64,000 bases of DNA, taken from the NCBI GenBank assembly GCA_030648615.1, contig JAUSHJ010000040.1, forward strand, positions 1-64,000. Direction: 5' to 3'. This stretch comes from Microcaldota archaeon (GTDB lineage Archaea > Micrarchaeota > Micrarchaeia > Anstonellales > Bilamarchaeaceae). Positions within the stretch are counted from its first letter, which is position 1; each line of letters starts with the position of its first letter. Below are positions 17,208-58,642 of this stretch, piece by piece. The position numbers and the translations under genes were made by a program. The notes under the pieces are model-generated. The model had not been told where the DNA came from and did no database searches. It was given only the letters and a program-made list of their open reading frames with translations.

Positions 17208-17312
17208 TGAGACAAGATATATCTAGTCTCAATCTATACAGAACCAGTGTCACGACAATTCGTGACACTATTTGTCAACAATGTTGACAAACCAAAGTTG
17301 GTTCTGTATATA
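17208..17312. repeat. Nested/tandem hairpin cluster A
   Basis: TATACAGAACCA...TGGTTCTGTATA enclosing GTGTCACGACAATTCGTGACAC and TTGTCAACAATGTTGACAA; preceded by GAGACAAGATATATCTAGTCTC. Confidence 0.85.
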
Positions 17313-17354: not shown

Positions 17355-17571
17355 AGCGGGGTAACGCATTCTAAAACTTTTTAACATTTAGGGTGCGCCT
17401 CATGGGGAGCTTGGAGTTCCCGCTGGAAGTTGTATCTAGTATTTCTTATTGGATACATCTGGCAAAGCTCATAACCCAGTTGTGTCTTTTGATTAAAAGA
17501 TGCAGGGCAAAGATCGATGGTTCAAATATTTGAACCACTTTTGGTTTGAGTTGGAATTCCATCCCCCGCTA
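17355..17571 (+). tRNA. Initiator-like tRNA-Met(CAT) with about four inserts
   Basis: AGCGGGG...CCCCGCT-A acceptor; GGGGAGCTTGGAGTTCCC D-arm; G-CTCATAA-CCCAG anticodon arm; GATGG-TTCAAA...TTCCATC T-arm, with hairpin-forming inserts between. Confidence 0.85.
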
Positions 17572-17595: not shown

Positions 17596-17822
17596 TTCCC
17601 AATTGTTCATCGTTATGAACAACACAATTTTCCGAAGTATCGGAAAATGTGCACATTGTTGCGTACAACAATTGTGTGGGCGCAATTATTTTCTGCGGAA
17701 AATAATGCATTGTCGGCAGTGTCAAAAATGCCGACAAGTATTGACGCGTATAGCGTCAATGCACATTGACAACACTTTGATTCATTGTCAATTGCGCATT
17801 GTTGCTCTGAGCAACAATTGCG
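17596..17822. repeat. Tandem hairpin array B, about eight consecutive hairpins
   Basis: TTGTTCATCGTTATGAACAA; ATTTTCCGAAGTATCGGAAAAT; TTGTTGCGTACAACAA; ATTATTTTCTGCGGAAAATAAT; TTGTCGGCA...TGCCGACAA; ATTGACGCGTATAGCGTCAAT; ATTGACAA...TTGTCAAT; TTGTTGCTCTGAGCAACAA. Confidence 0.9.
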
Positions 17823-19816: not shown

Positions 19817-19966
19817 GGGCTCGTAGCTCAGTACCGTTTGTATCAATTAATATACTCGGTTGAGTAACAGCAGAGCACCCGCCTTGCACGCGGGGGGCCG
19901 AGGGTGCGAGAGCTTTGTCCTGGCGGACAAAATTAGCCAGCAAAGCCGTCTATCCCTCCGAGTCCA
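19817..19966 (+). tRNA. tRNA-Ala(TGC) with D-loop and T-loop inserts
   Basis: GGGCTCG/CGAGTCC-A acceptor, GCTC...GAGC D stem, CCCGC-CTTGCAC-GCGGG anticodon arm, GAGGG...CCCTC T stem. Confidence 0.88.
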
Positions 19967-22026: not shown

Positions 22027-22134
22027 GACAAGCTTGTTGCTTAGGGCAACAAGATGTCCACGCAATTGTCGAGCGCGACAATGCGCACATTGTTCGAAAC
22101 ATCGAACAATTGTGTTGTTGCAATGCAACAATTG
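22027..22134. repeat. Tandem hairpin array D upstream of gcvH
   Basis: TTGTTGCTTAGGGCAACAA; CGCAATTGTCGAGCGCGACAATGCG; ATTGTTCGAAACATCGAACAAT; TTGTTGCAATGCAACAA. Confidence 0.9.
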
Positions 22135-22167: not shown

Positions 22168-22548
22168 ATGGCATTGAAATTTACAAAAGATCATGAATGG
22201 ATAAGAACTGATGGAGATTTTGTAGTCGTAGGTATTTCTGATTATGCTCAAAAAGCACTCGGAGATTTAGTAAGTTTGGAATTGCCAAAAGTTGGCAGAG
22301 TTCTAAAACAACACGATAGTTTCTCGATTGTAGACTCGATGAAAGCAAGTAGTGATGTCTATGCACCAATAAGTGGTGAAGTAGTAGAAATAAATTCCCC
22401 TCTTAATAATAATCCTCAATGGATAAACGAATCTCCCTATGAAAAAGGATGGATGATAAAAATTAAGCCATCAAATCCTGCCGAGTTAGATGTACTAATG
22501 TCAGAAGAAGATTACAAAAAATACCTTTCTGGTTTGGGTAGTCACTAA
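22168..22548 (+). CDS. gcvH: Glycine cleavage system H protein
   Basis: MALKFTKDHEWIRTDGD ... SFSIVDSMKASSDVYAPISGEVVEIN; start placed at 22168 after GGTG, not the track start inside the array. Confidence 0.94.
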   Translation: MALKFTKDHEWIRTDGDFVVVGISDYAQKALGDLVSLELPKVGRVLKQHDSFSIVDSMKASSDVYAPISGEVVEINSPLNNNPQWINESPYEKGWMIKIKPSNPAELDVLMSEEDYKKYLSGLGSH

Positions 22549-23879
22549 TGAATTATATACCTATCACTGATCAAGACGAGAAAGACATGCTCGCATTGCT
22601 CGGGTTAAAAAATATAGAGGAATTGTTTACACATGTTCCAGCTAAGCTTAATCGTGACCTTGCACTCGGAGAGCCTCTAAGTGAACTTGAATTAAAGAAA
22701 CATTTGCAGGAATTAAGTGAAAAGAATAACGTACTGAAATACTTTAGAGGTGCAGGAAGTTATTTGCATTACGTTCCCAGTGCAATTAATCATCTTATTT
22801 TACGTGGTGAGTTTTTTACTGCATATACTCCATATCAGCCAGAAGTAAGTCAAGGTACTTTACAGGCAATATACGAATTCCAAACGTTAATTTGTGCACT
22901 GACTGGTATGGATGTTGCAAATGCAAGTATGTATGATGTTGCTACAGCAGCAGCTGAATCTATGCTATTAGCAAGAAGTGAAAATGAACGGAACGAAGTA
23001 GTCATTGCCAATCCATTAAATCCACAATATTTAGAAGTGTTGAAGACTTATGCTGCAAGTTGTGGATTTGTTTTACATGAGGGTATAAGCAAATTAACCG
23101 ACAAGACTAGTTGTGTTATTGTTCAACAGCCAAGTTATCACGGATCTATAGAAGATTTAAAACAATTTTCAGACAAAATACATGAAAAAGGAGCAATGCT
23201 TGCAGTAATTATTACTGATCCTACTTCTCTTGCAATTATCGAACCTCCTGGGAGTTTTGGTGCAGATATTGTTGTTGGGGACTTACAATGCTTTGGTAAT
23301 GGGTTAAATTTTGGCGGACCGTCTGGGGGGTTTATGGCTGTAAAAAAACAGTTCATAAAGAAAATTCCAGGAAGACTTTGTGGAATGACAAATGACGATA
23401 AGGGAAATACAGGTTTCATACTTACTTTACAAGCAAGAGAGCAGCATATCAGACGTGAAAAAGCTACAAGTAACATTTGTACTAATCAGGCATTGAATGC
23501 ACTTGCTTCTACTATTTATCTTTCACTTCTTGGTAAAACTGGTTTGAGAAATGTTGCTATGAAAAGTTATCATAATGCGCACAAGTTACAAAAGTTGCTA
23601 GAGGTTAGCGGGTTTAAGCTAGTTGATGGTAGCAAACCATTGTCAGCGGGGCAAAAAAACGCTGACAACATTTGTCACGAAACTCGTGACAAATCATTTT
23701 ACAATGAATTTTTAGTTGAGACTCCAGTTCCAGTTAAAAATCTAAACGCAAAACTTCAAGACCACGGATTTTTAGGTGGAGTAGAAGTTGCAGAAAACAA
23801 ATGGTTGCTCTGTTGCACGGAAATGTTGGATGACAAGGATATTGAAAAATTTGTTGAGACCGTTAAGAGTGTGAAATAA
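22548..23879 (+). CDS. gcvPA: Glycine dehydrogenase (decarboxylating) subunit 1
   Basis: YIPITDQDEKDMLALLGLKNIEELF; FRGAGSYLHYVPSAINHLILRGEFFTAYTPYQPEVSQGTLQAIYEFQTLICALTGMDVANASMYD. Confidence 0.95.
   Translation: MNYIPITDQDEKDMLALLGLKNIEELFTHVPAKLNRDLALGEPLSELELKKHLQELSEKNNVLKYFRGAGSYLHYVPSAINHLILRGEFFTAYTPYQPEVSQGTLQAIYEFQTLICALTGMDVANASMYDVATAAAESMLLARSENERNEVVIANPLNPQYLEVLKTYAASCGFVLHEGISKLTDKTSCVIVQQPSYHGSIEDLKQFSDKIHEKGAMLAVIITDPTSLAIIEPPGSFGADIVVGDLQCFGNGLNFGGPSGGFMAVKKQFIKKIPGRLCGMTNDDKGNTGFILTLQAREQHIRREKATSNICTNQALNALASTIYLSLLGKTGLRNVAMKSYHNAHKLQKLLEVSGFKLVDGSKPLSAGQKNADNICHETRDKSFYNEFLVETPVPVKNLNAKLQDHGFLGGVEVAENKWLLCCTEMLDDKDIEKFVETVKSVK
23638..23698. repeat. Hairpin pair inserted in frame within gcvPA
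   Basis: TTGTCAGCG...CGCTGACAA and TTTGTCACGAAACTCGTGACAAA; flanked by CATT/CATT, 57-nt period (19 codons). Confidence 0.75.
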
Positions 23880-26854: not shown

Positions 26855-26962
26855 CTACTGTAAATTCTATCGATGTTAAAGAATTCTTCTTTAATAGTTG
26901 TAACTTGCAAAGCAATTTACTCGAATTTACAACAAGACAAATTCCTTTTCAATTTGTCTTTT
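26855..26962. repeat. Palindromic element family F, expanded copy
   Basis: TACTGTAAATTCTAT...GAATTTACAACAAGACAAATT...AATTTGTCTT; extra hairpin TTAAAGAATTCTTCTTTAA nested in the first loop. Confidence 0.8.
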
Positions 26963-30231: not shown

Positions 30232-30599
30232 GGGCCCGTAGCGCAGCTAAAGTTTTGAGTCTCGATTTCTGTGTTTCGAATTTTATTCATTCGAAACCAA
30301 AAGTAGAAAACTGAAAACTTCTGCTATGGACAGCGCGGCAGCCTTCTAAGAAATTTCTTTCGGTAATCTAAAGAAATTTCATAAAGAAAGAGGAAAGCTG
30401 TAGGTCATGGGTTCAAAACAGTCTTCAGTCTTGAAGTTTTGAGTCTAGTAAAATTATAATTACGAGACGTGAAACAGGACAACCATAAATCGACAAGCTT
30501 GTTGCTTCGAGTGATAAGATGCTCAGTGTTCGAACAATCGAACACTCGGGAACATCGATTTATCGGGAACTGGAGACAGTGTATTTCCCATCGGGCCCG
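30232..30599 (+). tRNA. tRNA-Arg(TCT) with D-loop, anticodon-loop and T-loop inserts (368-nt gene)
   Basis: GGGCCCG/CGGGCCC-G acceptor; GCGC...GCGC D stem; GCAGC-CTTCTAA...GCTGT anticodon arm; ATGGG-TTCAAA...TCCCAT T-arm. Confidence 0.85.
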
Positions 30600-32358: not shown

Positions 32359-32379
32359 TTATTATTTGATGTGATATCA

Positions 32380-32469
32380 ATGAATTGTCCCACGGGACAA
32401 ATATCCGTGTGCTTTTCAAGCACATCTGTTGAACAAGGTTCAACATCTCGAAGTGATTTCTCGATGAAT
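32380..32469. repeat. Tandem hairpin array H at the 5' end of polC flanked by a 6-bp direct repeat
   Basis: ATGAAT at 32380-32385 and 32464-32469 bracket TTGTCCCACGGGACAA, TGTGCTTTTCAAGCACA, GTTGAACAAGGTTCAAC, TCGAAGTGATTTCTCGA; 84-nt offset (28 codons). Confidence 0.85.
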
Positions 32470-35400
32470 ACGCAAAATTATTTTATAATTCTCAAAGCCG
32501 AACTGCAGAAAGCATATGCAATTTCCAGCGAAGCTCGTTCGAAAGGTTTTGATCCTGAAAAAGAAGTAGAAGTTAAAATAGCTCCAGACGTTGCAGCAAG
32601 AGTAGAAGGTATTGTGGGTCCAAAGGGAATTGCAGAAATTATACGTAGTATGGAGAAGCAAGGAATTTCCAGAGAAGACGTCGCATTTGAAATAGCAAAA
32701 AAATTAGCTTCCGGAGAAATAATCAAAGGAACAAAAGAGCAACTTGTAGAACAAGCAGTTAGAACTGGATTGGGGATACTTACAGAAGGTGTTCTTGTAG
32801 CTCCAACCGAAGGCATAGCTAAAGTTAGGGTAAAAAATAATCCTGATGGTACTGATTACGTTGCAGTTTATTATTCTGGTCCAATTAGAAGTGCTGGGGG
32901 AACTGCTGTAGCCTTAAGCGTTTTATTGGCAGATGTGGCTCGTAGGGTAGTTGGCATAGGAGATTATAGGGCAACTGATACTCAAATTGAAAGATATAAT
33001 GAAGAGGTAAATATTTACGAATCACGTGTGGCGCATTTGCAATATAAGCCTCCTGAAGAAGATGTTAAATGGGTTGTACAGAATTGCCCAGTTTGTATAG
33101 ATGGTGATCCTACAGAAGAAATAGAAGTGAGTACTTTTCGCAGTGTTCCTGGTGTTGAAACCAATAGAATAAGAGGGGGAGTACCACTTGTTATTTGTGA
33201 AGGGATAGCTCAGAAATGCGCAAAAGTTTTCAAGTATACTAAAAAACTTAACCTTGGCTGGACCTGGCTTGAAAAAATTATTAAAGTTAGTAAAAAAGAA
33301 GACAAGGTTGATATTAAGGTCGATTTTACCTATCTGGAAGGCATGGTAGCAGGAAGACCAGTATTTGCCTACCCATCTAGGATGGGTGGTTTTAGGCTCA
33401 GATATGGAAAAAGTAGGACGAATAGTCTAATGGCAAAAAATATTCACCCTGCAACAATGATTCTTCTTAGTAATTTTCTTGCCTATGGTACGCACATGAA
33501 AATTGAAAGACCAGGTAAAGGTTGTGTTATAGCTGGTCACGAATTGCTTGAACCTCCAGTGGTAAGATTGAAAAATGGCACAGTGACAAAAGTCCATACT
33601 ATCGAACACGCAGAGAATTTGGAAAATCAAGTATCAGAAGTACTTTTTCTTGGGGATATGTTAATTACTTATGGTGATTTCCTAAAATCTAACTATCCGT
33701 TAATTCCAAGTGCTTGGTGTGATGAATGGTTCGTAAAGGAGTTAGAATCAAAAGGAGTTCAGCAGATTAACCTTAGCACAGCCAAAGACGCATTCGAATT
33801 TTCTAGGAAATACGAAGTCCCTCTTTTACCTCTATTTACTTATAACTGGGGAGATTTGAAAAAAGAGGAGCTTGGAAAACTTGCAGATTGGCTTTGTAAG
33901 GTGAATTTACAGTTAAATGAAAACGGAGAGTTGCAAGAAGCTACTATTGATAATGCCCCCGAGAAAAGTTATCTTGAAAACTTACTGGTGGAACATAAAC
34001 TCGCAGATGGAAAAGTAATTCTAGAATCGGATAATGCTTACGCAGTTCTTAACACATTGGGGTTACTGAATCAGACTATTATTAGCATGGATAAATTTAC
34101 TGCTGCATTTTCAAAATATAATTCGGTCTTTGAAATATTAAAAGAGTGTAGTGGAATAGAAATCAAAAATAAATGTCCAAGTTATATTGGCGCAAGAATG
34201 GGTCGTCCAGAAAAAGCCAAGGAAAGAAAAATGGATGGTTCCCCACACGTTCTTTTTCCAACCGGTTCACAGAAAAACAGAAGTATTGCTAAGGTTTACA
34301 AGACTATAAAAGGCAAGGATATAGAAAAAACCATTAATTTGGAGCTTGCAAGGATGCGCTGCATGAATTGTAATTCACTTACATTTTATGCCAGATGTGA
34401 AACCTGTGGTGGAGCAGCAAGACTAGAACGTGCCTGTGTGAAATGTAGCAAGGCAACCGATAGCGAAATTCACTGTGATGAAAAGACAATTATCTACGAT
34501 CGGAGACCAATAAATATAATTTCCATTCTTGAAAATACCAAAAAGAAACTTGGTTTTATGCCAGAAGATGTTAAAGGTATCAAAGGTCTTTCAAATCCTG
34601 AGAGATTTCCAGAACGTGTAGAAAAAGGGTTTTTCCGTTCAAAACACGATGTCTATGTATTTCGAGATGGTACTTCCAGGTTCGATGCTACGGATATACC
34701 TATCACACACTTTATTCCAAAAGAAATTGGGGTAACCATTGAGAAACTACGTACTCTTGGCTATGACAAGGATTATTTTGGGAATGAGCTTACCAAAGAT
34801 GATCAATTGGTTACCATGTATCATCAAGATATAATACTTGCAGATAATGGTGCTGACTATTTCATGAAAGTAGCAAATTTCATGGATGACATGCTGGTAA
34901 ATCTTTATGGGTTACAATCATTTTATAATGTGAAAAAGAAAGATGATTTGATTGGGCATTTATGTGCTGCGCTTTCTCCTCACACTAGTGCAGCAGTGCT
35001 ATGCAGAATAATTGGTTTTACCAGAGCTAATGTTGGATATGGGCATCCTTACTTTCATACTGTAAAGAGAAGAAATTGTTTCCATCCACAAACTCGTATT
35101 TTAATCGAAAGCAGTAAAAATAAAAAATACAAGATCCTCGAAGTTACACTAGAGGATATTACCGAGAATCTACTAGGTGCTAAAAATGCACGCATAAAAG
35201 TTCTGGATAATGATACTATACGAGTAGAATCAGAAGAAGAATTATTTGTTCACAGTATAGATAAGAGTTCAAAACAGATAGTAAAAAGAAAAATAAAATG
35301 TTTCATGAAAACAAAAGCTCCAGAATACTGGATAAGAATAATGACCAAAAATGGAAGAGAGATGTCAGTTACACCGGATCACAATATTCTTTGTATAGAA

Positions 35401-36360
35401 AACGGCATCATGAAATCTATAGAAGCTTCTAATGTAGTTCTTGGGCAGAAAATACCAATACGAGATAAATCAAAGAAATCATTTATACTTGAACCTATTG
35501 TAAAGATAGAAAAATTCATCGAGGTTAAAAATGCTTATTGCTTGGACATAGAAACAGAAAGCGATGAATTAGTAGAGAAAAATGTTCTATTGAACAATGG
35601 TATATTTTGTATTCGATGTGATGGTGATGAAGACTGTGTTATGATGCTTTTGGATGCACTAATAAATTTCTCAAGACATTACCTGGATGAAAGACGTGGA
35701 GGAACAATGGACACTCCATTGGTACTTAGTCCAACCATAGATCCAAAAGAAGTAGATGATGAAGCACACTGCATAGAAATGGTGACCAGTTACCCATTAG
35801 AATTTTATCATGCAACTGAAAGATTTGCATTGCCAAGCGAAGTAAAAATTAAAACTGTAAAAGATGTGCTTGGAAAAGATGAACAGTTTGACATTCCGCT
35901 TACTCATTTAGGTGGCTATATAGATAAGGGAAATATACGTACTGCCTACGTTTTGTTGGATTCAATTCCAGATAAAATAAAAGTGCAATTTGAATTGCAC
36001 GAGCGACTTAGAGGTGTTGACCAGAAGGATGCTGCAGAACGGCTTATTCTTAGTCATTTCATCCCTGATCTCTATGGCAATCTTCGTTCTTTTTCAAGAC
36101 AAACTTTCCGCTGTGGTAATTGCAATGAAAGTTTCCGGAGAGTGCCCCTTGCAGGTAAATGTTATCGTTGCGGTGGAAATCTTCTTTTAACAATTAATAA
36201 AGGCGGAATTCAGAAATATTTAGAGATATCAAGGGGAATAATAGATCGGTATCAGCTTCCAGATTATTTGAAACAGCGGATTGATCTTCTTGACAAAGAG
36301 ATAAAAAGTATATTTGAGGATGATAAGATAAAACAATTAGGTTTGGCAGATTTTATATAA
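32380..36360 (+). CDS. polC: DNA polymerase D large subunit (DP2) with intein
   Basis: YYSGPIRSAGGTAVALSVLLADVARR, IGARMGRPEKAKERKM, KRRN|C...R|CDGDEDC, RGGTMDTPLVL. Confidence 0.95.
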   Translation: MNCPTGQISVCFSSTSVEQGSTSRSDFSMNTQNYFIILKAELQKAYAISSEARSKGFDPEKEVEVKIAPDVAARVEGIVGPKGIAEIIRSMEKQGISREDVAFEIAKKLASGEIIKGTKEQLVEQAVRTGLGILTEGVLVAPTEGIAKVRVKNNPDGTDYVAVYYSGPIRSAGGTAVALSVLLADVARRVVGIGDYRATDTQIERYNEEVNIYESRVAHLQYKPPEEDVKWVVQNCPVCIDGDPTEEIEVSTFRSVPGVETNRIRGGVPLVICEGIAQKCAKVFKYTKKLNLGWTWLEKIIKVSKKEDKVDIKVDFTYLEGMVAGRPVFAYPSRMGGFRLRYGKSRTNSLMAKNIHPATMILLSNFLAYGTHMKIERPGKGCVIAGHELLEPPVVRLKNGTVTKVHTIEHAENLENQVSEVLFLGDMLITYGDFLKSNYPLIPSAWCDEWFVKELESKGVQQINLSTAKDAFEFSRKYEVPLLPLFTYNWGDLKKEELGKLADWLCKVNLQLNENGELQEATIDNAPEKSYLENLLVEHKLADGKVILESDNAYAVLNTLGLLNQTIISMDKFTAAFSKYNSVFEILKECSGIEIKNKCPSYIGARMGRPEKAKERKMDGSPHVLFPTGSQKNRSIAKVYKTIKGKDIEKTINLELARMRCMNCNSLTFYARCETCGGAARLERACVKCSKATDSEIHCDEKTIIYDRRPINIISILENTKKKLGFMPEDVKGIKGLSNPERFPERVEKGFFRSKHDVYVFRDGTSRFDATDIPITHFIPKEIGVTIEKLRTLGYDKDYFGNELTKDDQLVTMYHQDIILADNGADYFMKVANFMDDMLVNLYGLQSFYNVKKKDDLIGHLCAALSPHTSAAVLCRIIGFTRANVGYGHPYFHTVKRRNCFHPQTRILIESSKNKKYKILEVTLEDITENLLGAKNARIKVLDNDTIRVESEEELFVHSIDKSSKQIVKRKIKCFMKTKAPEYWIRIMTKNGREMSVTPDHNILCIENGIMKSIEASNVVLGQKIPIRDKSKKSFILEPIVKIEKFIEVKNAYCLDIETESDELVEKNVLLNNGIFCIRCDGDEDCVMMLLDALINFSRHYLDERRGGTMDTPLVLSPTIDPKEVDDEAHCIEMVTSYPLEFYHATERFALPSEVKIKTVKDVLGKDEQFDIPLTHLGGYIDKGNIRTAYVLLDSIPDKIKVQFELHERLRGVDQKDAAERLILSHFIPDLYGNLRSFSRQTFRCGNCNESFRRVPLAGKCYRCGGNLLLTINKGGIQKYLEISRGIIDRYQLPDYLKQRIDLLDKEIKSIFEDDKIKQLGLADFI
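35077..35616 (+). mobile_element. Mini-intein (180 aa) in DP2, degenerate C-terminal splice motif
   Basis: N|CFHPQTRIL ... SVTPDHNIL ... AYCLDIETESDELVEKNVLLNNGIFCIR|C; no LAGLIDADG seen. Confidence 0.88.
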
Positions 36361-41580: not shown

Positions 41581-41603
41581 TAATTTATTTCATGTTCTTT
41601 CTT

Positions 41604-41662
41604 TCTACTGTAAATTTTATTTAATTTACAACAGGACAAATTAATTTTGTAATTTGTCTTTT
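41604..41662. repeat. Palindromic element family F copy
   Basis: TACTGTAAATTTTATTTAATTTACAACAGGACAAATTAATTTTGTAATTTGTC. Confidence 0.8.
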
Positions 41663-42279: not shown

Positions 42280-42315
42280 AATAATACTTGCTGGAATAGG
42301 TTTAAAGATTTTCAT

Positions 42316-42376
42316 TGTACTATAAATTCTATTGAATTTACAACAGAACAAATCTCTTGTCGATTTGTTCTTGTTT
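42316..42376. repeat. Palindromic element family F copy
   Basis: TACTATAAATTCTATTGAATTTACAACAGAACAAATCTCTTGTCGATTTGTTCT. Confidence 0.75.
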
Positions 42377-47649: not shown

Positions 47650-50600
47650 GTGAAAATTATGTCGGAAATAATCATAGAAAGACCAATTGAAAAAGACCTT
47701 CAAGAAAGCTATCTAGCTTACGCAATGAGTGTTATTATTGGCAGGGCAATTCCTGATGTAAGGGATGGCCTAAAACCAGTACACAGGAGAATTTTATTTT
47801 CGATGCATGATCTAGGGAATCACCATAATAAACCCTATAAAAAGAGTGCAAGAATAGTGGGTGACACTTTAGGAAAATATCACCCGCACGGTGATCAAGC
47901 TATATATGATTCACTTGTAAGAATGGCACAATCGTTTTCGTTACGATATATGCTAGTTGACGGTCAGGGAAATTTCGGATGTTTTACAAAAGATACTAAA
48001 GTTGCGTTGACAGATGGAAGAAGTTTGTCATTTGAAGAGTTAATTAAAGAATACAAAGAAGGAAAAAAGAATTATACATTTACAGTAGATCGAGATAATA
48101 AAATAAAAATAGCAGAGATAAAAAATCCAAGATTGACAAAAGAAAAAGCAGAATTAGTTAAAGTTATTCTTGATAATGGTGAAGAGATAAAATGTACTCC
48201 TAATCATAGATTTATGCTAAAAGACGGTACATATAAAGAAGCTAAGGATCTGGAATCTGGAAATTCTTTGATGCCATTATATTCTAGGTTATCAACAAAA
48301 GATGACGATCCAAATATCGTAGGATATAAAATGATTTATAACTCTTCTGAGGAAAAATGGGTATACGTCCATCATTTATCCGATGAATTTAATCTAGAAA
48401 ATGGCGTCTATGCAAGAAGCGCTGGCAGAATCAGGCATCATATAAATTTTAATAAACTTAACAACAATCCAGAAAATATCAAAAGAATGGACTGGAAAGA
48501 GCATTGGGTATTACATTACAACTTGACTTCTCAAAAACATATAAATGATCCAGAGTACAGGAGAAAACTGGCAGAAGGAAGAAAACAATTTTGGAGTGTT
48601 GAAGAAAATAAGAAACTCCTATCAAAGAGAACTTCAAAGAGAAATAAGGAGAACTGGGAAAAACCATTATATAGAGCTAAAATGTCTCAAAAACTTAGTG
48701 AAATAAATAAATTATATATTGAAAATCATCCAGAAAAAAGACAAGAATTTAGTGCTAGATTAACTAACACACTAAAAAGATTATGGCAGACAGAATCCTA
48801 TAAATTAATAATGAAGGCAAATATTACGAAGGGAAATAAGAATCATACAACTAATAAAACTGGAAAAGTAAAATTTCTTAGAATATGTAAAGAAATTAGT
48901 ACTAATAGGGAAATTATTTGTGAAAAAACTTACGAAAATATAAGAAATATTCTCTATCCTTACGGATCAGCTACAACCTGGACTACTGCTTTGAAAAAAT
49001 ATTTTAATAATGATCCTAATCTAGTGCTGCAGGAATTAAATAAAAATCATAAGGTTACCAAAGTAGAGAAATTAGGTTATTTGGAAGATGTTTATGATTT
49101 AACTATAGATATTACGCATAATTTTGCTTTAGCCTCAGGAATTTTCGTTCACAATTCAATAGACGGGGATAATCCAGCTCACATGCGTTATACAGAGGTG
49201 AGAATGGCTCGTACAGCAGAAGAAATGCTTGAAGATATAGATAAAGAAACAATCGATTTCCTTCCTAATTTTGATGGTACGTTGAAAGAGCCTACAGTAC
49301 TCCCAAGTAAATTACCAAATTTACTTATAAACGGTACTTCTGGTATTGCTGTAGGTATGGCAACTAATATGCCGCCTCACAATCTCAATGAAATCGTTGA
49401 TGCTACTGTTGCAGTGATTGATGGTGCAGATGAATTGGTAGTCTTGAATATTGTTAAAGCACCTGATTTTCCAACAGGCGGAGAAATTGTTGGTAAGGGC
49501 GGAGTGTACAATGCTTACAAAACCGGAAGAGGGACTATAAGATTGCGTGGAAAAGCAGAGATAGATGAGAAAAAACACATTATTCGTATTACAGAAATTC
49601 CATACCAGATTACGAAGACTTCAATAATAGAATCAATTGCAGAATCAGCCAAGGAAAAACGCATAGAAGGAATCCGTGGCATACATGATAGAAGCGATAA
49701 GGATGGGATCGAAGTTATCGTAGAACTTTCCAGAGATGCAAATCCAGAAGTCGTACTTAATCAATTATACGTTCACAGTCCGCTTGAAACTACTTTCGGT
49801 ATTATTAATCTTGCAATTGTAGGAAAGGAGCCTAAAGTATTGTCTTTATTTAGCCTCATAAATGAATTTATAGGATTTAGAAAAGAGGTTATAACAAAGA
49901 GAACTAAATTTGAATTGAGAATTGCAGCAGAAAGGGCACACATATTGGAAGGATTGAGAATTGCTCTTGACAATATTGATGCAGTCGTAGCTTTTTTACG
50001 TGCTTCTAAGGATGTAGAATCTGCCAGAACTGGCATGATGGCTAACTATTCATTGAGCGAGAAGCAGGCTAATGCAATTCTAGATATGAAATTGCAGAAG
50101 TTAATTTCTTTAGAAAGAAAGAAGATTGATGATGAGTATGCAGAACTGAAGAAGACCATAGACTGGCTAAAGGAAATATTAGCAGATGTTGGCAAAGTAA
50201 TGAAAATCATCAAAGATGAACTGCTTGAAATAAAACAAAAATACGGAGATGAAAGAAGAACTAAAATTCTTGATATCGATGGCGACATAGTCACAGAAGA
50301 TCTTATACCTAATGATGATGTAGTTGTCGTAATCACCCAGCGTGGGTACATTAAACGAATGCTGCTTAACGAATACAAATCTCAGCACAGAGGGGGCAAA
50401 GGAGTAATCGGTGCAGAAACAAAGGAAGAAGACTTTGTGCGAGATCTCATAGTTACAAAGAACAAGAATTACATGCTATTCTTTACAGACAAAGGAAGAG
50501 TTTTCTGGCTTAAAGCATACCAGATACCAGAATCAGGAAGATATGCAACCGGAAAAACAATTGTTAGCATGCTGGATCTCAAGGAGGAAAAAGTAAATTC

Positions 50601-51360
50601 CTGGATAACTGTTGATCAGTTCAACGAAAATGAGTTTTTAGTGATGGCTACCAAGAACGGAATATTAAAGCGAACTTCTCTTATGAATTTTAGTAATCCT
50701 AGAAAGAACGGTGTCATTGCAATTACTCTGAAGGAGAACGATCAGCTTGTCGATGTGATAAAAAGTAATGGTAAGCAGGAAATGATACTTGCTACTCGTT
50801 TCGGTCAGGCTGTAAGATTTGATGAGAATGATGCAAGAGAACTTGGCAGAACAGGACAGGGTGTCATAGGTATTAGGTTGAAAGATGAAAATGACGCGGT
50901 CGTAGGAATTGCAGTATGCAATAAGCCCTCATTATTCACTATCACTGAAAATGGTTATGGGAAGAGGACTCCTATAGAAGAATATCGTTTACAAGCAAGA
51001 GGCGGTTCTGGAGTAATAAATATGAAGACCGAGGGAAGAAACGGCAGCGTCATAGGTATAGCTGGGGTAGAAGAGAGTGATGAAATAATTGTCATTACCA
51101 CTGGTGGTCAAGTTATAAGGACTTTCATAAAAGATATTTCAGTTATTGGTAGGAACACTCAGGGTGTCAGGATTATTCGTTTGGACGAAACCGCGAAAGA
51201 GAGGGTTGCGAATTTTGCAGTTGTGCATGCAGGAGCGGTAGTAGCTGTAGCGGATGGAATTAATGATGTAGAAGCTGGGGTCAATAAGATAGAGGATATA
51301 AAAAGCGAAACAGAAAATGAAAATAAAGAAGAAAATTTACCTAAAGAAGAAGGAAAATAA
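47650..51360 (+). CDS. gyrA: DNA gyrase subunit A with intein
   Basis: YAMSVIIGRAIPDVRDGLKPVHRRILFSM, VDGQGNFG|C...HN|SIDGDNPAHMRYTEVRM, C-terminal beta-pinwheel GRTGQGVIGIRL. Confidence 0.97.
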   Translation: MKIMSEIIIERPIEKDLQESYLAYAMSVIIGRAIPDVRDGLKPVHRRILFSMHDLGNHHNKPYKKSARIVGDTLGKYHPHGDQAIYDSLVRMAQSFSLRYMLVDGQGNFGCFTKDTKVALTDGRSLSFEELIKEYKEGKKNYTFTVDRDNKIKIAEIKNPRLTKEKAELVKVILDNGEEIKCTPNHRFMLKDGTYKEAKDLESGNSLMPLYSRLSTKDDDPNIVGYKMIYNSSEEKWVYVHHLSDEFNLENGVYARSAGRIRHHINFNKLNNNPENIKRMDWKEHWVLHYNLTSQKHINDPEYRRKLAEGRKQFWSVEENKKLLSKRTSKRNKENWEKPLYRAKMSQKLSEINKLYIENHPEKRQEFSARLTNTLKRLWQTESYKLIMKANITKGNKNHTTNKTGKVKFLRICKEISTNREIICEKTYENIRNILYPYGSATTWTTALKKYFNNDPNLVLQELNKNHKVTKVEKLGYLEDVYDLTIDITHNFALASGIFVHNSIDGDNPAHMRYTEVRMARTAEEMLEDIDKETIDFLPNFDGTLKEPTVLPSKLPNLLINGTSGIAVGMATNMPPHNLNEIVDATVAVIDGADELVVLNIVKAPDFPTGGEIVGKGGVYNAYKTGRGTIRLRGKAEIDEKKHIIRITEIPYQITKTSIIESIAESAKEKRIEGIRGIHDRSDKDGIEVIVELSRDANPEVVLNQLYVHSPLETTFGIINLAIVGKEPKVLSLFSLINEFIGFRKEVITKRTKFELRIAAERAHILEGLRIALDNIDAVVAFLRASKDVESARTGMMANYSLSEKQANAILDMKLQKLISLERKKIDDEYAELKKTIDWLKEILADVGKVMKIIKDELLEIKQKYGDERRTKILDIDGDIVTEDLIPNDDVVVVITQRGYIKRMLLNEYKSQHRGGKGVIGAETKEEDFVRDLIVTKNKNYMLFFTDKGRVFWLKAYQIPESGRYATGKTIVSMLDLKEEKVNSWITVDQFNENEFLVMATKNGILKRTSLMNFSNPRKNGVIAITLKENDQLVDVIKSNGKQEMILATRFGQAVRFDENDARELGRTGQGVIGIRLKDENDAVVGIAVCNKPSLFTITENGYGKRTPIEEYRLQARGGSGVINMKTEGRNGSVIGIAGVEESDEIIVITTGGQVIRTFIKDISVIGRNTQGVRIIRLDETAKERVANFAVVHAGAVVAVADGINDVEAGVNKIEDIKSETENENKEENLPKEEGK
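47980..49155 (+). mobile_element. HNH-containing intein in GyrA (392 aa)
   Basis: CFTKDTKVALTDG ... RHHINFNKLNNNPENIKRMDWKEHWVLHY ... VYDLTIDITHNFALASGIFVHN|S. Confidence 0.9.
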
Positions 51361-51752: not shown

Positions 51753-51828
51753 AAATTCACCTTAATAATATTAATATTTAAATCTATATATTTCACCAGT
51801 TTATGTCTGGTGGTTTTTGACATATTTT

Positions 51829-52090
51829 CATGTGTCAATTCGGCACGGAAACTCATGGTTTGACGCGTAACGCCGCGTCAAATATTGACACGATACGTCG
51901 TGTCAATGGATTGTCAATACTTTGTTGACAAATAGTGTCACGAATTGTCGTGACACTGGTTTTAACCTTGGGAGGAAGTGCCGAATTTACACAACTTTGC
52001 CCTCCCAATTGTTCGACGCTTCGAACAATGGGCATATTGTTGCTTATAGCAACAATCTTGTAGGCTGTGGTGGCCGAATGGGCAAATCAT
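51829..52090 (+). repeat. Two-stem structured element, copy 1, expanded by hairpin insertions
   Basis: CATGTGTCAATTCGGCACGGAAACTCATGGTTT...TTTTAACCTTGGGAGGAAGTGCCGAATTTACACAACTTTGCCC...GGCTGTGGTGGCCGAATGGGCAAATCAT. Confidence 0.85.
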
Positions 52091-58485: not shown

Positions 58486-58513
58486 CTAAGGTAATAAAAT
58501 GTTGTTTAAAACT

Positions 58514-58642
58514 CATGTGTCAATTCGGCATGGAAACTCATGGTTTTAACTTTGGGAGGAAGTGCCGAATTTACACAACTTTGCCCTTCGGCCCTAATGA
58601 AACCACAGCCTTTAGGCTGTGGTGGCCGAATGGGCAAATCAT
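58514..58642 (+). repeat. Two-stem structured element, copy 2, compact
   Basis: TTCGGCATGGAAACTCATGGTTTTAACTTTGGGAGGAAGTGCCGAA then TTTGCCCTTCGGCC...ACCACAGCCTTTAGGCTGTGGTGGCCGAATGGGCAAA. Confidence 0.85.

Follow-up and report, generated by a model that had tools for sequence, protein, structure and literature searches.

Hairpin dimers in the window and their copies

The window analysed here is a stretch of 64,000 nucleotides (positions 1 to 64,000 of contig JAUSHJ010000040.1) from a host genome (G000) of 1.65 Mb that is assembled in 76 contigs and is ~90% complete. It encodes an archaeal DNA polymerase II large subunit (32371-36360), whose closest matches are in Candidatus Micrarchaeota genomes at ~57-65% identity, and GyrA (47650-51360), both of which match intein splicing-region models. 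The host belongs to the Micrarchaeota, a DPANN lineage. At 17.2 kb lies a pair of adjacent hairpins, referred to here as a type-A dimer (17247-17290, + strand), with the direct repeat ACCA on both sides (17243-17246 and 17291-17294). The dimer sits within a larger host hairpin (17235-17310) in which TATACAGAACC (17235-17245) pairs with GGTTCTGTATA (17300-17310), and removal of the dimer together with one ACCA gives TATACAGAACCAAAGTTGGTTCTGTATA, in which a 13-bp stem is restored. Further along is an array of ~8 hairpins (17603-17822) that includes another type-A dimer (17710-17759) with TGCA on both sides.

The first-pass annotation of this DNA had described the enclosing stem, which is indeed present, and an inverted match between the hairpin pairs at 17.2 kb and 51.9 kb, which proved to be real and extends over 43 nt at 98% identity (17242-17284 against 51919-51961). 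The 24-nt hairpin AGTGTCACGACAATTCGTGACACT has three exact matches in the whole genome, at 17246-17269 (+) and 51934-51957 (-) in the window and at 19902-19925 (+) of contig C70, with none in the reversed control even at 3 mismatches. This third copy, together with the many family members described below, argues against a simple duplication history limited to two copies. The 51.9-kb and C70 copies do have a shared history, both being components of one composite repeat, and the 17.2-kb copy is the only independent insertion among the three.

At 51.9 kb the near-identical dimer (51911-51956, - strand), in inverse orientation and flanked by TGGA (51907-51910) and TGGT (51957-51960), is the second of two that lie one after the other. 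The first (51860-51906, +) has a left repeat TGGT (51856-51859), and a related dimer in another stretch of the genome (L124:6010-6056; L-numbers label such stretches) stands alone with TGGT on both sides. The order TGGT, TGGA, TGGT at 51.9 kb looks as though the edge of the first dimer had been the insertion site of the second.

Hairpin pairs are in excess and lie mostly outside long ORFs

In order to count hairpins we used a sample of 781 kb of the host genome including the window, about 47% of the total. Perfect stems of >=8 bp numbered 177 as against 41 in Markov sequence, and 122 adjacent hairpin pairs were found in the 781 kb; the first 276 kb contained 49 such pairs compared with 1 in Markov-shuffled DNA, which is not attributable to chance. 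A large majority (98 of 122) lie outside long ORFs although such ORFs fill 88% of the sample. In-frame hairpin pairs were seen in other long ORFs, namely L091 6357-7757, L104 891-2747 and L107 15977-17206, and may be further in-gene insertions. Dimers were present in 26 of 153 tandem and 7 of 43 convergent spacers and in only 2 of 74 divergent spacers (p=0.009 for depletion of the latter), as expected of elements under purifying selection.

One explanation of these arrays is that they are functional RNA or regulatory structures, such as terminators, mRNA-stabilising elements or structured non-coding RNA, which selection maintains and duplication has multiplied. The depletion in divergent spacers, the strong predicted folds and the compensating stem changes described below would fit with this, however within tandem spacers the hairpins are evenly positioned with no clustering near gene ends, and Rfam gives no match in the window. 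Given also that sites differ between relatives and that dimers occur within gcvPA and tRNA introns, we regard this explanation as quite improbable. A terminator role in particular was not supported by the position of the hairpins in spacers.

Type-A dimers are flanked by a site-specific 4-bp direct repeat

Type-A dimers have the form TTG..CAA-W-TTG..CAA and span ~45-60 bp, with the first or last arm sometimes GTG/CAC. Their terminal inverted repeats are thus the TTG..CAA ends, of which just 3 nt are fixed, and the element is too short to code. Candidates were gathered blind to their flanks and the 4 bases on each side were then compared. An exact 4-nt direct repeat flanked 16 of 37 candidates, as against 1.43 on average and at most 7 across 5000 shuffles, in a list that was left unfiltered, in which several non-matching rows are pairings bridging two neighbouring elements or other hairpin types, and in which copies are partly non-independent (window 17710 and L099:13994 are near-identical). 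Several type-A candidates are without a flanking repeat. The matched repeats (TGCA, AGCA, ACCA, AGCT, ACCT, TGGT, AGGT, TGCT and AGCG) vary by site and are nearly all of the form WSSW, and a target duplication of this kind suggests insertion at the DNA level with a stagger of ~4 nt at WSSW. In 14 of the 16 cases an A, the element's final base, precedes the repeat, so that the duplication may instead be a 5-bp AWSSW. A stem of >=7 was found in 2 of 16 empty sites compared with 1.4% of random WSS sites, which is suggestive only of a possible preference for palindromic targets.

An alternative dispenses with a transposase and has replication errors (template switching at quasi-palindromes, microhomology recombination and gene conversion) both create the hairpins and multiply them, the perfect stems reflecting template-switch correction. 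The near-perfect stems and their compensating variation speak for it, as does a variant of the core repeat in L047 that resembles a microhomology deletion, however it predicts neither site-specific WSSW flanking repeats nor the same dimer in unrelated contexts. Replication errors are therefore an unlikely origin of the family, and they may still be a cause of stem change.

Core repeats occur with and without dimers

The composite repeat at 51.9 kb is built on a 130-nt core with TCAT at its boundaries and two subterminal hairpins. Eight complete copies share 97-98% identity, and at least 18 copies are present when truncated ones are included. A minimal, empty copy in the window (58513-58642, +) is 130 nt long with TCAT at each end, while loaded copies of 181, 263, 337 and 441 nt differ mostly by whole hairpin modules, with dimers present or absent at the same place. 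The 263-nt copy in the window (51828-52090, +) holds the two type-A dimers described above and one dimer of a second kind, type B (52003-52060, +), of the form CCCAATTG..CAATGGG CATATTGTTGC..GCAACAATCTTG. The full core was not detected in the 30 relatives searched and the core pattern had no match in genome_contigs.

When type-B dimers were collected by their outer motifs alone, 52 of 56 inner pairs of the first hairpin were Watson-Crick (shuffle mean 31, maximum 41). The identical loop GGGCAAAAAAA was found to top three different stems of 9-10 bp. Stem sequence is thus not conserved, the bases varying with compensation. Such compensating changes may result either from selection on the fold of the DNA or RNA or from template-switch correction. 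The type-B and loop patterns had no match in viral_contigs.

Occupied and empty sites at the gcv locus

An in-frame type-A dimer (23640-23692, +) lies within gcvPA (22548-23879), flanked by ACCA and ATCA, which differ by one mismatch. The insert of 57 nt including one repeat corresponds to 19 codons, and ~19 residues are missing at this point from two relatives (G001 and G027). A hairpin array 5' of gcvH (22031-22131) is likewise absent in G001, in which the gcvT-gcvH gap is 27 nt with no array between the genes. The converse was also seen, with an array at the gcvH 3' end in G001 and none there in the host genome. From comparison with these relatives, the occupied and empty sites support dimer mobility. 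The earlier suggestion that hairpins move or copy as modules is thus upheld on several counts, with the same dimer in unrelated contexts, site-specific flanking repeats, near-identical core copies with and without dimers, and a gcvPA dimer that two relatives lack.

Hairpin dimers within interrupted tRNA genes

Two interrupted tRNA genes lie in the window, a tRNA-Met gene (CAT; 17355-17570, +) with an initiator-like acceptor (AGCGGGG/CCCCGCT) and several inserts, and a tRNA-Arg(TCT) gene (30232-30598, +) with inserts in the D loop, anticodon loop and T loop, the last of which contains hairpin modules. ARAGORN reported no tRNA in the window. A scan of the sample for interrupted tRNAs gave 18 matches compared with 2 in the reversed control, and 16 were accepted; tRNA-like matches in L096 and L126 were dropped as likely false. 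Type-A dimers with exact 4-bp repeats were found inside the anticodon intron of a tRNA-Pro gene (L106) and inside the T-loop insert of a tRNA-Glu gene (L131), and in several T-loop inserts a possible BHB-like central helix of TTCA/TGAA type was picked out by eye. The exons and three insert positions of the tRNA-Arg orthologue in G001 are the same as in the host, while the insert contents are different. Genes for the splicing endonuclease are present in the genome.

Multiple and non-canonical tRNA introns are already known in archaea (PMC12397907), and, as in the genes described here, archaeal introns with bulge-helix-bulge (BHB) motifs can occur several per gene at D, anticodon and T positions (PMC12397907). 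The difference is that some introns here hold mobile hairpin dimers and that contents wholly differ between relatives at the same positions; the new part is the apparent use of tRNA introns by mobile hairpins. With the Rfam tRNA model (E<=0.001) we counted 10 tRNAs in the host genome, 4 in G001, 5 in G007, 27 in G005, 45 in G006 and 44 in G008. The evidence for linking dimers to interrupted tRNAs is no more than suggestive because genomes without detected dimers can be tRNA-low too, as in G009, in which no dimers were detected and yet only 2 tRNAs matched the Rfam model.

Distribution among relatives

Of 295 genomes of the phylum, 7 contained the pattern ATTGTTCGA-N4-TCGAACAAT (<=1 mismatch), every one of them in the host's family, and the reversed control gave none. 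Carriers include G000, G001, G005, G007 and G013, whereas G006, G008, G020 and G022 count as non-carriers. The density of hairpin pairs per 100 kb was 8.8 in G001, 8.8 in G005, 3.5 in G006 and 2.1 in G008, part of the counts in the last three being ordinary-looking hairpins, and 0 in G020 and G022. Elements of the same types, with flanking repeats, are also present in G001 and G005, and as the sampled stretch of the carrier G005 is 58% GC the pattern is not accounted for by base composition. An assembly artefact is unlikely, since these element types recur in independent relatives. Our search of the literature, which took in few subscription papers, returned no description of elements of this kind in Micrarchaeota.

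A putative family of non-autonomous mobile elements

Our preferred reading, to which we give a probability of roughly three in four, is that the 17.2/51.9-kb pair belongs to a non-autonomous, MITE-like family of mobile two-hairpin elements that would insert at the DNA level. Under such a mechanism an enzyme acting in trans would recognise folded hairpins more than fixed sequence; a staggered cut of ~4 nt would be made at WSSW, the dimer inserted and the WSSW duplicated by gap repair. Inserts would persist where harm is small, that is in tandem and convergent spacers, in hairpin loops and in introns that the splicing endonuclease presumably cuts out. Further mobile families, without a WSSW repeat, would be represented by type-B dimers and the 130-bp core. 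Type-A dimers are nested in other hairpins, in the 130-bp core and in tRNA introns, and lie in frame in a protein gene. A broader and more tentative possibility, which we consider less likely than not, is a mobile class recognised by shape, in which any two short hairpins with suitable geometry would be a substrate for the machinery, stems drift while pairing is kept, nested arrays form via insertion into one another and spliced tRNA introns serve as safe havens.

With regard to the enzyme, a single Y1 transposase gene was found in the host genome (L133:14377-14727, near a contig end) and neither rve nor DDE_Tnp_1 transposases were detected there. No gene-bearing parent element with matching ends was present in the sampled ~47% of the genome. 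The mobilising enzyme may be missing from the assembly, given that the latter is incomplete and that these repeats often coincide with contig ends. Another possibility is that a Y1 (HUH) transposase moves the elements as REPIN or IS200/605-type units, in keeping with the paired palindromes, the Y1 gene and the TCAT-bounded core with its two subterminal hairpins. The Y1 mechanism makes no target duplication, however, whereas type-A dimers show one. Furthermore G001 and G005 carry dimers with no match to Y1, and the surroundings of the Y1 gene, including a downstream hairpin CCCAGCACTTTAGTGCTGGG unlike the dimers, resemble neither dimers nor core. A Y1 origin of type A was rejected on these grounds and this explanation appears highly improbable for the elements as a whole.

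Comparison with known elements

Among the closest known systems are the mitochondrial double-hairpin elements of Allomyces and sponges (PMC2800124), which are also short paired hairpins in many copies within spacers and tolerated gene parts. Two adjacent short hairpins form the mobile unit in both, however the present elements are archaeal and not mitochondrial, they show a 4-bp duplication that is cited as absent in Allomyces, and their stems vary while the loop can be identical, whereas sponge elements keep stems and vary loops (PMC2800124).

Prokaryotic MITEs (PMC10969869) are likewise non-coding and multicopy with inverted ends and target duplication. A target site duplication and terminal inverted repeats without an ORF are found here too; a conserved family sequence is not, and the dimers differ in being 45-60 bp units of two hairpins with unconserved stems and no parent element in the ~47% sampled. 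Rickettsia palindromic elements are also palindromic and in frame within protein genes, but are ~150 bp with a conserved peptide (PMC10969869), whereas the gcvPA insert is ~57 nt with no conserved sequence. The palindrome doublets of REPIN/REP-RAYT systems (PMC3116915) similarly spread within a genome; in the present case no matching RAYT is found in carriers, with one Y1 gene in the host and none in G001 or G005, a flanking repeat is present where REPINs lack target duplication, and arrays are nested.

If the preferred reading is right, the dimers would be mobile units of very small size (~45-60 bp) that move at the DNA level, leave a measurable target duplication and are kept by structure over sequence, in an archaeal lineage usually thought streamlined. 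It would also mean that tRNA introns can swap their entire content while positions stay fixed, and would pose the question as to which enzyme recognises the hairpins.

Other repeats

A second composite repeat, with a shared flank TTCTAGGTTGTTAATCGTGC plus hairpins, occurs at or near four contig ends (L098:15863-15947, L119:53-156, L121:1665-1719 and L132:6-85). A separate AT-rich two-hairpin unit, GTAAATT..AATTTACAAC AGGACAAATT..AATTTGTCC, occurs in the window at 26914-26962, 41598-41660 and 42310-42372 and also at L123:2436, L130:960 and L100:11934. It is often followed by T runs and is possibly terminator-like or another mobile unit.
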